From assembly GCA_017255395.1 (NCBI GenBank), contig JAFKDC010000003.1:1-64000 (forward strand): a stretch of 64,000 bases of DNA. The letters are read 5' to 3'. Shown one piece after another: positions 21,812 to 28,034 of this stretch. How positions within the stretch are numbered: the stretch's first letter is position 1; each line of letters begins with the position of its first letter. The DNA comes from Enemella evansiae (GTDB taxonomy: Bacteria; Pseudomonadota; Alphaproteobacteria; Rhodobacterales; Rhodobacteraceae). The notes below the pieces were generated by a model. The model searched no databases and had not been told where the DNA came from. It saw only the letters and a list, made by a program, of their open reading frames with translations. The position numbers and the translations under genes were made by a program.

Positions 21812-24800
21812 TCATTCCGCCGCCCGCAGCGCCAGTTCCGGCTGGCGCGGATCGCTCGGGGTCTCGTCCTCCCAGATGATCTCTGGCGCCGTGACCCTCC
21901 GTGCCGCGCGGTTCAGCGCCCAGTCGCGGGCCGCCGTGCTGCTGCGGCCCAAGGATAGCCGTGCCAGCAGGCGCGCCAGCCACAGAACGTAGGTCGTGGC
22001 CCAGACCCGCACCGCCAGCAGCGAGGGCGTCACCACCAGCGTTAGCACCGTCGCCACGCCAAGGCCGAAGACCACCGCCGTCGCGAGGTTCTTCCACCAC
22101 AGCGCCGTCGGGCTGTCGATGGAATAGCCGCCCGCGAAGAAGTCGAGCGAGAGCCCGAACATCATCGGCGCAAGGCCTGCCATGGTGGTGATCGTGGTCA
22201 GCAGAACCGGGCGGATGCGCGCCTCTGCGGTGCGCACGATGGCCTCGATCCGGGGCATGTAGCGGCTGTATTCCTGATAGGTGTCGATCAGCACGATATT
22301 GTTGTTCACCACGATCCCCGCCAGCGCGACGATGCCGGTGCCGGTCATGATGACGCTGAAGTACTGCCCCATGACCAGCATCCCGATCAGCACGCCGGTG
22401 GTGGAGAGCACCACGGCGATCAGCACCAGCACCGCGTTGTAAAGGCTGTTGAACTGCGCCAGCAGGATGATGAACATCAGACCTAGCGCCGCGCCGAAGG
22501 CGGAGGAAAGGAAGGCCTGGCTTTCCTCCTGGTCTTCCTGGTCGCCGGTCCATTCCCACTCGATCCCTGCGGGCAGGGGGGCGGTCTCCAGCCACTCGGT
22601 CAGCTGCGCGATGCGGTCGTTGGCCGTGAGGGGCACCAGAGAGACGGTCGCGCCCCGGTCCACCAGGCGCTGAAGCTCTGCGGCCTCGCTGTCGGAAATC
22701 CCGCGTTCCAACCGGAAGTACCGCGTTTCGACGCCGCCGCCGGAGCCACCGAACAGCGAGCCGGGTCGCGGGAAGTCCAGCGACAGATCGTAAGCGCCTG
22801 CGTCCCGGGCCTGCTCTGCCGGGATCTCGCTGCCGAAGCCAAGCTCGTGCGAGACCGTGGCGGGCGCCTCTGCCCCCTCGGCCCGCTGCGGTTCCTCGTA
22901 AAAGCTGGCCTCGCGCGCGACCTCGGCGGGCATTGTGATCCGAACCGTCTTGCGGTCGGTGTTCACCCCGGCCTTGACGTCGAAATAGCGCTTCTGGTCG
23001 ATGCGGTTGATCTCTGCCAGCTTTTCCACCGGCTGGCGCGTGACGAAGTTCGCCAGCGGCACAAGGCCGTCCGCCGTGCGCACCTTGAGGCTGTCGAGCG
23101 TCGACAGCACGCGGTCCTCCTCGGGCAGGCGCACGCGGATCTCGATCTCTTCGTCGGACCCGGCTGGCGTGTAGCTGTCCAGCAGGATGCCGCGCGTCAC
23201 AAGCTGCACCATGGCGCCCACCACGGCCACGTCGGCGCCGAAGCGCCCGGCCTTTTCGACATCGACGTCGATCTCCCAGTCGATGCCGGGCAGGGGGCGC
23301 GTGTCCTCGATCAGGGTCAGCGCGGGCAGGCTGTCGAACCGTTCGCGCGCAAGGGCGGTGGCGGTCAGCAGGTCTTCCCAGTCATTGCCCTTCAGGCGCA
23401 GGTGAACGGGCTTGGCCGAGGCCGGGCCGCGCGCCTGTGCAAGGATCTCGATCTCGATGCCGGGGATACGCTCCAGCTTGGCGGTCAGGGCGTCGATGAT
23501 GTAATCGCCGTCCAGTTGCTCCAGCGTGACCTCGTCGGGGTGTTCGCGGGCATAGGCGGCACGGTCCTCCCATGGGATGGTCTCCAGCTGGACCTGCCCG
23601 ATGGTGTCCTTGGGGGCCTGCGCCCCGCCGGTGTTGCTGTCGAGGCCGCCCTCTCCGGCAAAGGCGAAGGCGTTCAGGATGCCGGGCTGGGCCAGCACGA
23701 TCTGCTCGGCGCGCCGGACGATGGCATCCTTCTCCTGAAGCGACAGGTTGCCCCGCGCGCGGACGTAGACGATGGCCTGCTCGGGTTCGCTGTCGACGAA
23801 GAACTCGACGCCGTTGTTGTTCTCGCCGAAGTAGCTGAAGACGCTGGCGACGAAGAAGCCGACGGCGCCCAGCGTCACCAGCGGCATGACCGGATTGCCC
23901 GCGATGGACTTGATCACGTAGCCGAAGGGCGTGCGGCGGTGGCTGCCCTCGATGCGCTTGCGGCGGCGTTGCAGGGCCGCCGCGTCCATGACCACCGAGG
24001 ACAGCACCGCGAACAGGATGAAAGTCACGATGCCGGGCAGGCGGGCCGCCAGCCCCTCGCCCTCGACCGGGAACAGGTAGGCCGGGTTCAGCACCATCAT
24101 GGCGCCCACGAACATGCCGAAGATCATCACCGGCACGAGGGCCGCGCGCAGGACCCACGGCGTGGCGCCGCGCAACCAGTTGCCCGCGCGGTGGATGTTG
24201 CGCGAAAAGCGGCCCGTGACGCCGCCCATGACCGGCAGGTAGATCAGCGCCACCACGAGGCTGGCGGCCAGCACGAAGATCAGCGTGACCGGCAGCATGC
24301 CCATGAACTCGCCCGCCACACCGGGCCAGAACAGCATCGGCAGGAAGGCGCAGAGCGTCGTGGCGGTGGACGAGACCACCGGCCAGAACATGCGCTTGGC
24401 GGCCTCGACATAGGCATGCATCGGCCCCGAGCCTTCAGAGATGCGCTTGTCGGCGTATTCGACCACCACGATGGCGCTGTCGACCAGCATGCCAACGGCC
24501 AGAATCAGGCCGAACATGACGATGTTGGAAATCGTCACACCCATGATCGCCAGTAGCACGAAGCACAGCAGGAACGAGGTCGGGATGGCGAAACCCACCA
24601 GCAGGGCGGGCCGCAGCCCCAGCGAGGCCAGCACCACGATCATCACCAGCGCGATGGCGGTCAGGACCGAGCCTTCCAGCTGGCTGACCATGCTTTCCAC
24701 CTGACGGCTCTGGTCGTTGGAATCGCCCACGTCCAGCACCGCCTGCAACTCGGGCGGCCAGCCCTCGCGGGCCTCGGCGATGACCGCGCGCACGTCGGCG

Positions 24801-25684
24801 GCGGTGTCGATGATATTGAAACCCTTGCGCTTGACCACCTGCAGGGCGACCGTCTGCACACCGTTGAAGCGCGCGGTGCCAGTGCGGTCCTCGAAGGTCA
24901 GGTTGATGGTGGCCAGATCGCCCAGCGTCACCACGCGGTCGCCGTTCACCTTCACCGGCAGGTCGTAGACGTCGCGCGCCTCAGAGAAATTCGAGGGCAC
25001 CTTCAGCGCGAAAGTGCCGTTCTCTGTCTCGACCTCGCCAGCGGCGATCAGCTGGTTGTTGTTCTGCACGACGGTGATCAACTCGCCCGCGGTGACGTTG
25101 TAGCTTTCCAGCCGCAGCGGGTCGATCACCACTTCGAGCATCTCGTCGCGGTCGCCCGCGATCCCGGCCTCGAGCACGGAATCCAGCCCCTCGACCCGGT
25201 CCTGCAGGTCCTTGGCGACACGGTTCAGCGTGCGTTCCGGCAGCGGCCCCGACAGGTTGACGATCAGGATCGGGAATTCCGAGAAGTTGATCTCGTTGAT
25301 AGAATACTGTTCCGCGCCCTCGGGGAAATCGGCCTGCGCGTTGGACATGCCGTCGCGCACGTCGGCCATGATCTTGGTCTTGTCCCAGCCGAATTCGAAC
25401 TCCAGCGCCAGACCGGCATAGCCCTCGGCGGCGGTGGCGGTCATGCTTTTCAGCCCGTCGAGGTCGGACAGCTCCGATTCCATCGGCTTGACCAGCAGCG
25501 TCTCGGCATCGCTGGCGGAAATGCCGGGGAAGGGCACCGAGACAAACAGGGCCGGGATCTCGATGTCCGGCTCGCCCTCTTTGGGCAGGCTGATGTAGGC
25601 GTAGGCGCCGACCACAAGGCCCAGAACGATGAAGGCCAGCACCATGCGGGCGCGCTGCGCGGCCCAGTCGACGATCCCGGTCAC
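21812..25684 (-). CDS. RND efflux transporter permease, enlarged
   Basis: A 1290-aa inner-membrane proton antiporter of the AcrB/HAE family, longer than the usual 1020-1050 residues. The N-terminal span (residues about 9-30) is followed by the porter domain, and the TM4 motif GMLVDSAIVVVEYADKR is intact. Extra length lies in the centre (about residues 510-560, two added hydrophobic segments followed by a basic RRRKRIEG) and in the second porter half (a loop including FPRPGSLFGGSGGG). The GTG start overlaps the stop of the fusion-protein gene. The substrate cannot be told, and no TolC gene is adjacent. Confidence 0.88.
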   Translation of the reverse strand: MTGIVDWAAQRARMVLAFIVLGLVVGAYAYISLPKEGEPDIEIPALFVSVPFPGISASDAETLLVKPMESELSDLDGLKSMTATAAEGYAGLALEFEFGWDKTKIMADVRDGMSNAQADFPEGAEQYSINEINFSEFPILIVNLSGPLPERTLNRVAKDLQDRVEGLDSVLEAGIAGDRDEMLEVVIDPLRLESYNVTAGELITVVQNNNQLIAAGEVETENGTFALKVPSNFSEARDVYDLPVKVNGDRVVTLGDLATINLTFEDRTGTARFNGVQTVALQVVKRKGFNIIDTAADVRAVIAEAREGWPPELQAVLDVGDSNDQSRQVESMVSQLEGSVLTAIALVMIVVLASLGLRPALLVGFAIPTSFLLCFVLLAIMGVTISNIVMFGLILAVGMLVDSAIVVVEYADKRISEGSGPMHAYVEAAKRMFWPVVSSTATTLCAFLPMLFWPGVAGEFMGMLPVTLIFVLAASLVVALIYLPVMGGVTGRFSRNIHRAGNWLRGATPWVLRAALVPVMIFGMFVGAMMVLNPAYLFPVEGEGLAARLPGIVTFILFAVLSSVVMDAAALQRRRKRIEGSHRRTPFGYVIKSIAGNPVMPLVTLGAVGFFVASVFSYFGENNNGVEFFVDSEPEQAIVYVRARGNLSLQEKDAIVRRAEQIVLAQPGILNAFAFAGEGGLDSNTGGAQAPKDTIGQVQLETIPWEDRAAYAREHPDEVTLEQLDGDYIIDALTAKLERIPGIEIEILAQARGPASAKPVHLRLKGNDWEDLLTATALARERFDSLPALTLIEDTRPLPGIDWEIDVDVEKAGRFGADVAVVGAMVQLVTRGILLDSYTPAGSDEEIEIRVRLPEEDRVLSTLDSLKVRTADGLVPLANFVTRQPVEKLAEINRIDQKRYFDVKAGVNTDRKTVRITMPAEVAREASFYEEPQRAEGAEAPATVSHELGFGSEIPAEQARDAGAYDLSLDFPRPGSLFGGSGGGVETRYFRLERGISDSEAAELQRLVDRGATVSLVPLTANDRIAQLTEWLETAPLPAGIEWEWTGDQEDQEESQAFLSSAFGAALGLMFIILLAQFNSLYNAVLVLIAVVLSTTGVLIGMLVMGQYFSVIMTGTGIVALAGIVVNNNIVLIDTYQEYSRYMPRIEAIVRTAEARIRPVLLTTITTMAGLAPMMFGLSLDFFAGGYSIDSPTALWWKNLATAVVFGLGVATVLTLVVTPSLLAVRVWATTYVLWLARLLARLSLGRSSTAARDWALNRAARRVTAPEIIWEDETPSDPRQPELALRAAE

Positions 25685-27711
25685 TGGATGATCTCCTCGA
25701 AGCTGGGCGCGACGGGCACCCCGTCGGTGACGTATTCCTGTCCCAGCGTGATGACGTCCACGGTGTCCGGCAGGCCGGTCACCCAGACCCCTTCGCGGGT
25801 GTCGCGCAGCAGCGTGACGGGCAGGAAGGCCACGGTTTCCTCGGCTGAGACACTGCGCACGCCAAGGCGGCCGTCGTCGTCCAGTGTCAGGCTGGATTGC
25901 GCCAGCAGGTGCGCGGGGGCGCCCTCGGCGGCGATGGCGATCTCGGCGGTCTGGCCGTCCCGGATCGAGAGGTCTTCGTTGTCGACAAGGATCTCGACGC
26001 GGAAGGTGCGGGTCAGCGGATCGGCAGAGCGCGAGACAAAGGTGACCTTGCCAGCCACCTCGCGCCCCGAGACCAGCCGCGCGCCCGCCTGCGCGCCATG
26101 GTCGACGCGGGCCACATCGCTTTCGGCCACGTAGCCCACGATCTTGACCGGGTTCAGCTGGATCACCGTGGCGCAGGCGCTGCCCGGCTGCATCAGCGCA
26201 CCAAGTTCGGCGGTGTCGGTTTCCAGAAGCCCGGCAAAGGGCGCGTGGATGGACAGTCGTTGGATGTCCTTCTCGACAGAGGCGATGGCGGCCTCGGCGG
26301 CCTGAATGGCGCTGAGCGCGCTTTCCTCGCCGGTCTTGGCGGATTGCACGGCGGCGGCGGCGCCTTCCAGCTGCGACTTGGCCGAGATCACGGTGGCCTT
26401 GGCGCCCTCGACGCCCGACAGGGCGCTTTCGACGGCGGCAGAGGCGCCCTCGACATCCGAGGTGGCGCTTTGCACCCCGGCCTTGGCGTTCTGGATCTGG
26501 CTTTGCGCGGCCTGCACCCCGGCCTTGGCGTTCTGGATCTGCGCCCCCGCCGCGATCACACCCGCCTTGGCGTTGCGGATGCCGCTTTGCGCCGCCTGCA
26601 CGGCAGCCTTGGCGGTCTCGACCTGGCTTTTCGCGGTCTCGACGCCTGCCAGCGCGCCCTGCACCTGACTTTTCGCGGCCTCGATGCCCGAGGCGGCGCT
26701 CTTCAGCCCCAGTTGCGCGGCCTGCACCCCGGCCCTGGCGGCCTCGAAGGCGGCCTCGGAAGCGGCCAGCCGGGTCTGCGCGGCAAAGCCGTCGCGGGCC
26801 AGCGACTGCGCGGCCTTGAGGTTGATATCGGCCTCTTTCACCCGGGCCTCGGCTTCCAGCACGCGGGCTTCGGCCTCTGGCACCCGCGCCTCGGCCTCGG
26901 CAAGCGCGGCTCGGGCGGCGGGCACGGCGGCCTGGGCCTCTTTCAGGCGCGACTGCGCGGCGGGCACGGCGGCCTGCGCCTCGGCCAGCCGGGCTTCGGC
27001 CTCGGGGACGCGGCTTTCGGCCTCTTCCAGCCGGGCCTCGACCTCGGGGACGCGGGCCTTGGCCTCGGCCAGATAGGCCTCTGCCTCGGGGACACGGGCC
27101 TTGGCCTCGGTCAGGCGGGCGGCGGCGGCGGGCACCCCGGCGCGGGCCTGGGACAGTTGTGCCTGAGCGGCGGGCACGGCGGCCTCGGCCTCGAGGATAC
27201 GGGCGCGGGCGGCGGGCAGGGCGGCCTCTGCCTCGGCCAGGCGCGCCTTGGATTCCGGCAGGCGGGCCCTGGCCTCTGCCAGCCGTGCCGTGGCTTCGCG
27301 CAGGCTGACCTGTCGCGTGCCCGGGTCGATCTCGCACAGCAGCTGCCCGGCCTCGACCAGCGCGCCCCGGCGCAGCGGTTCCGAGACCACCTTGCCCGAT
27401 GTCTCGGCCCGCACCTCGACCTCGCGCAGCGCCTCTGTCTCGCCGCGCAGGACCACGGCGCTGTCGACCACCTGCGCCACCGAGCGGTGGGCCATGACGC
27501 GCACGGTGCCTTCGGGCACTTTGTCCGCGGGGCTCTCGGCGATCTCCGCCACGGGCTCCGCCACCGGGCCCTCGGGCTCTGGCGTGTCGGCCCCGGCCAG
27601 CGCGGCGGGCGTATTGTCCCGCGCAAAACCCAGGAGACGGTCCCGTTCCAGTACGAGGCCATAAAGGACAGCGGCCACAATCAGGGCCGTGATCAGGGAA
27701 ACGATACGCAT
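25681..27711 (-). CDS. RND membrane-fusion protein with giant repeat hairpin
   Basis: A 676-aa periplasmic adaptor, far above the roughly 400 residues of AcrA-type proteins. An N-terminal span (about 4-20) is followed by the first lipoyl half (REVEVRAETSGKVVSEPLRRGALVEAG), then the hairpin, then the second lipoyl half (IHAPFAGLLETDTAELGALMQPG, from about 488) and beta-barrel/MP domains. The hairpin has two arms of 14-residue repeats. Arm 1 (151-290) has Pro at 152, 166, 180 and so on to 278; arm 2 (327-480) repeats AGVQAAQSQIQNAK-like units. The tip (about 300-322) has the RDGFAAQTRLAASEA signature for docking to TolC-type channels. It is coupled to the RND permease by GTGA. Confidence 0.9.
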   Translation of the reverse strand: MRIVSLITALIVAAVLYGLVLERDRLLGFARDNTPAALAGADTPEPEGPVAEPVAEIAESPADKVPEGTVRVMAHRSVAQVVDSAVVLRGETEALREVEVRAETSGKVVSEPLRRGALVEAGQLLCEIDPGTRQVSLREATARLAEARARLPESKARLAEAEAALPAARARILEAEAAVPAAQAQLSQARAGVPAAAARLTEAKARVPEAEAYLAEAKARVPEVEARLEEAESRVPEAEARLAEAQAAVPAAQSRLKEAQAAVPAARAALAEAEARVPEAEARVLEAEARVKEADINLKAAQSLARDGFAAQTRLAASEAAFEAARAGVQAAQLGLKSAASGIEAAKSQVQGALAGVETAKSQVETAKAAVQAAQSGIRNAKAGVIAAGAQIQNAKAGVQAAQSQIQNAKAGVQSATSDVEGASAAVESALSGVEGAKATVISAKSQLEGAAAAVQSAKTGEESALSAIQAAEAAIASVEKDIQRLSIHAPFAGLLETDTAELGALMQPGSACATVIQLNPVKIVGYVAESDVARVDHGAQAGARLVSGREVAGKVTFVSRSADPLTRTFRVEILVDNEDLSIRDGQTAEIAIAAEGAPAHLLAQSSLTLDDDGRLGVRSVSAEETVAFLPVTLLRDTREGVWVTGLPDTVDVITLGQEYVTDGVPVAPSFEEIIQ
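26272..26733 (-). repeat. 42-bp coding tandem repeat, hairpin arm 2
   Basis: Eleven consecutive 14-codon units encode residues 327-480 of the membrane-fusion protein. Units follow the pattern A-G/A-V-x-x-A-x-S-x-I/V-x-x-A-K, rich in Gln, Ser and Asn, with no Pro. The DNA is imperfect but stays in phase at 42 bp. Confidence 0.85.
26842..27261 (-). repeat. 42-bp coding tandem repeat, hairpin arm 1
   Basis: Ten consecutive 14-codon units encode residues 151-290 of the membrane-fusion protein, each starting L/V-P and continuing E/A-x-x-A-R-L-x-E-A-x-A. The Pro sits at the same place in all ten units (residues 152 to 278 in steps of 14). Composition is rich in Glu, Arg and Ala, unlike arm 2. Confidence 0.88.
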
Positions 27712-28034
27712 TCGGGTCTCATCCGTATTTCAAAAGGTCTTACGCCGGGGCGTTAATGGCGGATCATCGGGCGCGGCCCCCACCGCGTTCCCCTCTGAAC
27801 CGAATGGTTCAGTTTCTAGGGGGCTTTGCATCACCGCGCAAGCGCGCCGGTTGTCGCAACGGCACGAAACTGACAGTTTCCGACAACAGTGCCGCGCAAA
27901 TGCCGCGCCCGGACGGCGTTTCGACACCTTTTGCGAGCGATTCCGCCGTGGACCGGGCCGCCGGAGATGACCGCTTGGCACCCGCCGCCCGCCTGTGTAA
28001 GAGGGGGCAAACCGCGCCAGAGGGAGGCCAAAGG
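27712..28034. other. Divergent control region between RND genes and YfgM-like gene
   Basis: These 323 bp hold no supported gene. It should contain promoters for both sides. A TetR-type dyad (27795-27812) lies 84 bp upstream of the membrane-fusion protein start. AGGGAGG at 28021-28027 is the ribosome-binding site for the plus-strand gene. Confidence 0.5.
27795..27812. promoter_or_regulatory. TetR-like operator upstream of the RND efflux operon
   Basis: CTGAACC-gaat-GGTTCAG is a perfect 7-bp inverted repeat with a 4-base centre. Its size and position are typical of operators for TetR-family efflux repressors, but no TetR gene lies in the window, so the regulator would be encoded elsewhere. Confidence 0.5.

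Follow-up and report, generated by a model that had tools for sequence, protein, structure and literature searches.

Our data show that a 676-residue protein encoded in the window (the whole stretch of DNA analyzed here, 64,000 nucleotides at positions 1 to 64,000 of Enemella evansiae contig JAFKDC010000003.1) belongs to an RND efflux pump as its periplasmic adaptor, and make it likely that the TolC-facing α-hairpin of this adaptor was lengthened by paired heptads. We also propose, much more tentatively, that a single orthologous adaptor changes its reach digitally, by equal whole heptads in both arms, often at opposite points and over a range of 5 to 42, and that the proline-kinked long forms build a tube, curved or spring-like, that exceeds the periplasm in length.

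The adaptor gene lies at 25681..27711 on the minus strand. Its product scored 132.4 bits against TIGR01730, the NCBI model for RND periplasmic adaptors (cut-off 94.9), exceeded the cut-offs of both Pfam adaptor models, HlyD_D23 and HlyD_3, and at 46.7 bits fell far short of the cut-off of 390.8 for TIGR00998 (EmrA/EmrK). By sequence, the closest solved relatives are 6vej (an RND adaptor), AcrA (to which phmmer matched residues 86-150 of the window protein) and MexA. Foldseek searches with the predicted model ranked AcrA and MexA at the top, and sequence and fold searches together matched 6vej, AcrA, MexA, MacA and EmrA. The RND pump gene follows on the same strand (21812..25684, 1290 aa, ACR_tran 458.3 bits), its start overlapping the adaptor stop by 4 nt; this overlap with the first possible RND start recurs in 72 of 78 cases, window included, and a further locus, L078, ends too early to tell.

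Two other long open frames cross the adaptor gene, one on the plus strand (25897-27756, 619 aa) and one on the minus strand that continues into the RND gene (21812-27337, 1841 aa); both are probably due to high G+C content and the repeat. In 71 of the 78 RND partners, Gly replaces the second member of the TM4 Asp pair; six, including the window pump, have Ser there, and one is unread. Asn stands in place of the TM10 Lys in 75 of 78, with three unread. The TM4 Asp pair and TM10 Lys are what we take to be the proton-relay residues of AcrB, from which these pumps depart.

We predicted the structure of the window adaptor with AlphaFold2 from a 25-sequence alignment (mean pLDDT 83.2, pTM 0.39). The model begins with a helix at residues 2-32 (27616..27708, minus strand, as for all parts that follow), probably a membrane anchor, and with strands at residues 70-132 (27316..27504) that would include the first half of a lipoyl domain. 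Two unbroken helices are predicted next: arm 1, residues 133-304 (172 residues; 26800..27315), and arm 2, residues 309-484 (176 residues; 26260..26787), joined by a tip at residues 305-308 that ends in Gly308 (26788..26799). The second lipoyl half and subsequent strand domains occupy residues 485-676 (25684..26259). A reading made from the sequence alone had called this protein a membrane-fusion protein with a giant hairpin. The TIGR01730 match bears out the family, and the model supports the rest, predicting one long hairpin, unbroken in both arms, that exceeds those of AcrA, MexA and EmrA. Scaled on EmrA (127 Å per 84-residue helix), its predicted length is ~26 nm, and it counts 26 heptads by the anchors defined below, about 25 of them helical.

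The two arms differ in sequence. Ten prolines in arm 1, at residues 152, 166, 180, 194, 208, 222, 236, 250, 264 and 278, give nine spacings of exactly 14 residues, confirming the periodicity that the sequence-only reading had described; the next proline is at residue 491, and arm 2 contains none. The dominant periods of arm 1 are 7.0 residues for hydrophobic positions and 14.0 for proline, and Tandem Repeats Finder detects the repeats in the DNA too. The described contrast between a charged, Glu/Arg-rich arm 1 and a Gln/Ser/Asn/Gly-rich arm 2 is likewise present in the sequence. Arm 2 had been counted as eleven proline-free 14-residue units: it is indeed free of proline, but its 176-residue helix corresponds to about twelve and a half units.

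An assembly error is unlikely to account for these arms, because the arm lengths recur unchanged in a second genome from this genus, the repeat units have diverged (the best 84-nt window between units reaches 83% for arm 1, 71% for arm 2), and the two genomes show a low dN/dS (0.07 in arm 1, 0.10 in arm 2). We also considered, and rejected, simultaneous lengthening of both arms through a DNA palindrome: in four genes the best 42-nt complementarity between the arms was 25-28, the level of codon-shuffled controls (means 26.5-28.1, 60 shuffles each).

Using residues 485-676 as query, we collected relatives at the family level, the sample being the better-scoring part (the best 80 of 161; among the matches listed, from 303 genomes). 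One match to this C-terminal part, G009:C3:664102-664667, is split over two frames, which may reflect a frameshift or gene breakage. C-terminal matches came from 234 loci, of which six were left unmeasured (one paralog and five cut by the locus end); in the other 228, of which 34 are identical duplicates and 194 distinct, we located three anchors: where the first lipoyl half ends, the tip glycine, and where the second lipoyl half starts. The heptad number is the length of arm 2, from tip glycine to lipoyl domain, divided by seven; the helix falls about one heptad short of this number.

In all 194 distinct relatives, arm 2 exceeds arm 1 by exactly 3 residues and spans a whole number of heptads. 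There are 17 lengths, from 5 to 42 heptads (35-294 residues). In the short forms arm 2 measures 35 (n = 14), 42 (5), 49 (3), 56 (95), 63 (34), 70 (5) or 77 (8) residues, and in the long forms 98 (2), 112 (2), 140 (2), 154 (7), 168 (4), 182 (6), 210 (1), 224 (1), 238 (1) or 294 (4). All 30 arms longer than 77 residues are multiples of 14, and 98% of the 295 two-heptad units in arm 1 of these long forms carry a proline; arm 2 is proline-free in 194/194. The anchors do not force the match between arms, since those at the tip and in the lipoyl domain were each aligned individually. The exact matching in every relative measured is strong evidence that the two arms pair along their length as one antiparallel coiled coil. 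With the 30 long forms set in antiparallel register 0, 93% of 1360 core cells combine one large and one small residue and 1% hold two large ones, as antiparallel pairing would have it; the fit is nearly as good in register 7 (0.92 versus 0.93), which counts against the reading.

On an assumed spacing, the Leu, Ser and Arg positions of the tip would correspond to the RLS motif. The tip Leu and Gly are kept in 194/194 relatives, short and long alike, which speaks for a conserved role of the tip and bears on the suggestion, made in the sequence-only reading, that the adaptor may form a tube lacking a long TolC partner. The Ser is present in 143 of 164 short forms and 8 of 30 long ones, and the Arg position holds Ala in 155 of 164 short forms and in 30 of 30 long forms. 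Passages of a review of adaptors (Symmons et al, 2015; PMC4446572) name the RLS tip motif.

To follow length through evolution, we built a FastTree tree of the relatives from which the hairpin was left out. It requires at least 56 length changes, and at the fewest 6 changes between long and short. Relatives differ by whole repeats, as anticipated by the suggestion that length may change through repeat gain or loss; the closest pair of different length has a 90% identical core and lies 18 heptads apart. Among 44 branch-disjoint pairs of different length, the changes in the two arms fell within 7 residues of mirror points in 25 (shuffle null 16.5, P 0.004). A flipped control gave 19/44, so part of the agreement arises because changes in both arms favor mid-arm positions. 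Where the shorter arm had at least 98 residues, 4 of 11 pairs were within 7 residues (flipped control, 1). Several long pairs were far off (differences of 85, 54, 31 and 29), and placement inside repeats is ambiguous. These data are modest evidence that length changes tend to lie opposite each other in the two arms.

Two repeat dialects, exemplified by RVPEAEARLAEA and SIPTAEARLAEA, occur in different branches, which points to more than one expansion. Species with 42 heptads include Antarctobacter heliothermus and Pseudoponticoccus marisrubri, and the tree alone implies four separate arrivals at this length. Their independence is weakened by the likeness of two of these forms, L040 and L047, whose inner arms match best in register (80 versus at most 71 in arm 1, 68 versus at most 56 in arm 2), indicating shared descent or exchange. 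Between these two, the dN/dS ratio of 0.89 at the start of the C-terminal part was read as an unaligned one-residue difference and set aside. In-register likeness to the other 42-heptad forms is lower for L042 and little or none for L159 (67 versus 63 in the best case). The L159 form thus looks independent, which makes at least two arrivals at 42 heptads probable. The main long clade may go back to an ancestor that was already long, with shortening afterwards.

The gene keeps its place as far as checked: of the 78 distinct named loci covered by the synteny check, 76 have an upstream neighbor whose translation reads as BamB or YfgM-like. We took 20 distant loci, 17 of them in other families of the class and 3 in the same family; 18 of their inserts had the 5-heptad length, as did that of one paralog in the window genome (19/21). 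The short, 5-heptad type of hairpin is therefore probably ancestral. Whole inserts were measured here, and 8 of these 19, with an anchor three residues earlier (70 instead of 67), were put on one scale. Two loci are exceptions: in L294 the first anchor is missing, and in the distant homolog L309 the insert, at 26 residues, comes near to loss of the hairpin. At a threshold of E 1e-15, a search for similar arms across 289 genomes from the class and 249 from the phylum found none apart from the window; this was a weak search that scored the best 13-15 candidates per genome. With up to 150 candidates scored, the same arm query recovered 10/10 long-hairpin genomes and did not find the single short one.

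What the extra length is for admits several readings, not all of which exclude growth by paired heptads. The frequent length changes on the tree, together with the loss of the tip serine in most of the main long clade, could mean that repeats drift neutrally, the added length being functionless and free to vary while the coil pairs. We consider this rather unlikely: comparison of the two genomes of the genus shows purifying selection on the arms, and the tip is conserved, although selection for pairing would by itself suffice to produce both.

The remaining readings turn on whether the hairpins fit the periplasm. Passages of a study of E. coli envelope width (PMC8824477) put the inter-membrane distance at 30-32 nm at high osmolarity, whereas the longest arms (291 and 294 residues by anchors) would measure ~43 nm if helical, on the EmrA scale. 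One solution is a long hairpin folded over itself into a shorter four-helix rod that fits a normal periplasm, for which passages of the Symmons review (PMC4446572) offer CusB as precedent. Our AlphaFold2 model of the 42-heptad relative L042 breaks both arms close to their middle, at mirror points (266-278 and 580-583), which hints at such folding; for this relative an upright full-length rod is not predicted, which also counts against our main reading. However, confidence is low at the break (block pLDDT 44-48), the alignment comprised 14 sequences, and the 26-heptad window protein is predicted unbroken. We consider folding of this particular kind unlikely.

An unusually deep periplasm, with the membranes far apart and spanned by an upright hairpin, had been suggested by the sequence-only reading and is in our view improbable. 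The identical hairpin length in both genomes of the genus would fit it, and E. coli periplasm width does vary with tethers and osmolarity, according to the same passages of PMC8824477. There, however, the longest Lpp extension compatible with near-normal growth, 21 residues, widened the periplasm by about 3-4 nm. In the window genome, seven further HlyD_D23 adaptors, with open frames of 367-498 aa, are of ordinary length, as are three TolC-like frames of the OEP family (429-482 aa), which lie on other contigs and make a channel available. So are the adaptors over the cut-off (325-497 aa) and channels (468-513 aa) in the three 42-heptad genomes that we searched. RND length did not correlate with hairpin length among 75 complete RNDs (rho 0.19, P 0.10), and the closest pair of different length, with its 90% identical core, differs by 18 heptads. 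A generally deep periplasm is unlikely on these grounds. That the tube crosses the outer membrane or ends outside the cell is very improbable: the longest arms would exceed the E. coli membrane gap, but the tip keeps its Leu and Gly as in short forms, and the one family searched for, OEP, has no match on contig C3, which carries these genes.

We return to growth by paired heptads, and prefer a tilted, curved or folded rod as the reading of the long forms. By analogy with known pumps, six adaptor copies would ring the RND trimer, their tips meeting a TolC-like channel. A length change would persist only if both arms gain or lose the same heptads, and unequal changes would be lost because an unpaired heptad would break the coil. 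The regular proline, at an outer heptad position of one arm, may bend or soften the rod, in which case the long forms would be tilted, curved or folded rather than upright. Hairpin length would then be loosely constrained, and might drift or be tuned in this bacterial family.

These adaptors form a natural series of one protein in 17 lengths at one chromosomal place (76/78 loci checked), which can be used to ask whether tripartite pumps are built tip-to-tip, interpenetrating or folded, a matter of debate. In an E. coli-like envelope there would be no room for the longest members to stand upright; for them, either the envelope is different or the upright picture fails. Exact arm matching also makes the family an unusually clear example of two parts of one protein evolving in length together.

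Heptad-wise extension is already known as a kind of change: passages of the Symmons review (PMC4446572) describe adaptor hairpins extended or shortened by heptads in both helices, and those passages contain no such range or exact arm matching within one orthologous gene. In the open-licence literature, as far as its passages go, we did not meet 5-42 heptads in one orthologous gene, this exactness or a 14-residue proline unit, and titles and abstracts on hairpins, adaptors and envelopes, mostly of that literature, do not name the window protein. The window adaptor shares with AcrA and MexA an antiparallel hairpin between lipoyl halves and an RND partner, and its long arms hold the Foldseek query TM-scores to these two at about 0.3. 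It differs from them in hairpin length, ~26 nm as predicted against 58 Å for AcrA and 47 Å for MexA (passages of PMC4158417), and in the proline every 14 residues on one arm. With EmrA of Aquifex aeolicus it shares a long heptad hairpin. The same passages call the EmrA hairpin, with 11 heptads per 84-residue, 127 Å helix, exceptionally long, and describe an MFS partner, the lack of a membrane-proximal domain and shifts within the heptad pattern, in all of which EmrA differs. Against its 11 heptads, the window adaptor has about 25 that are helical (26 by anchors), and its relatives have 5 to 42.
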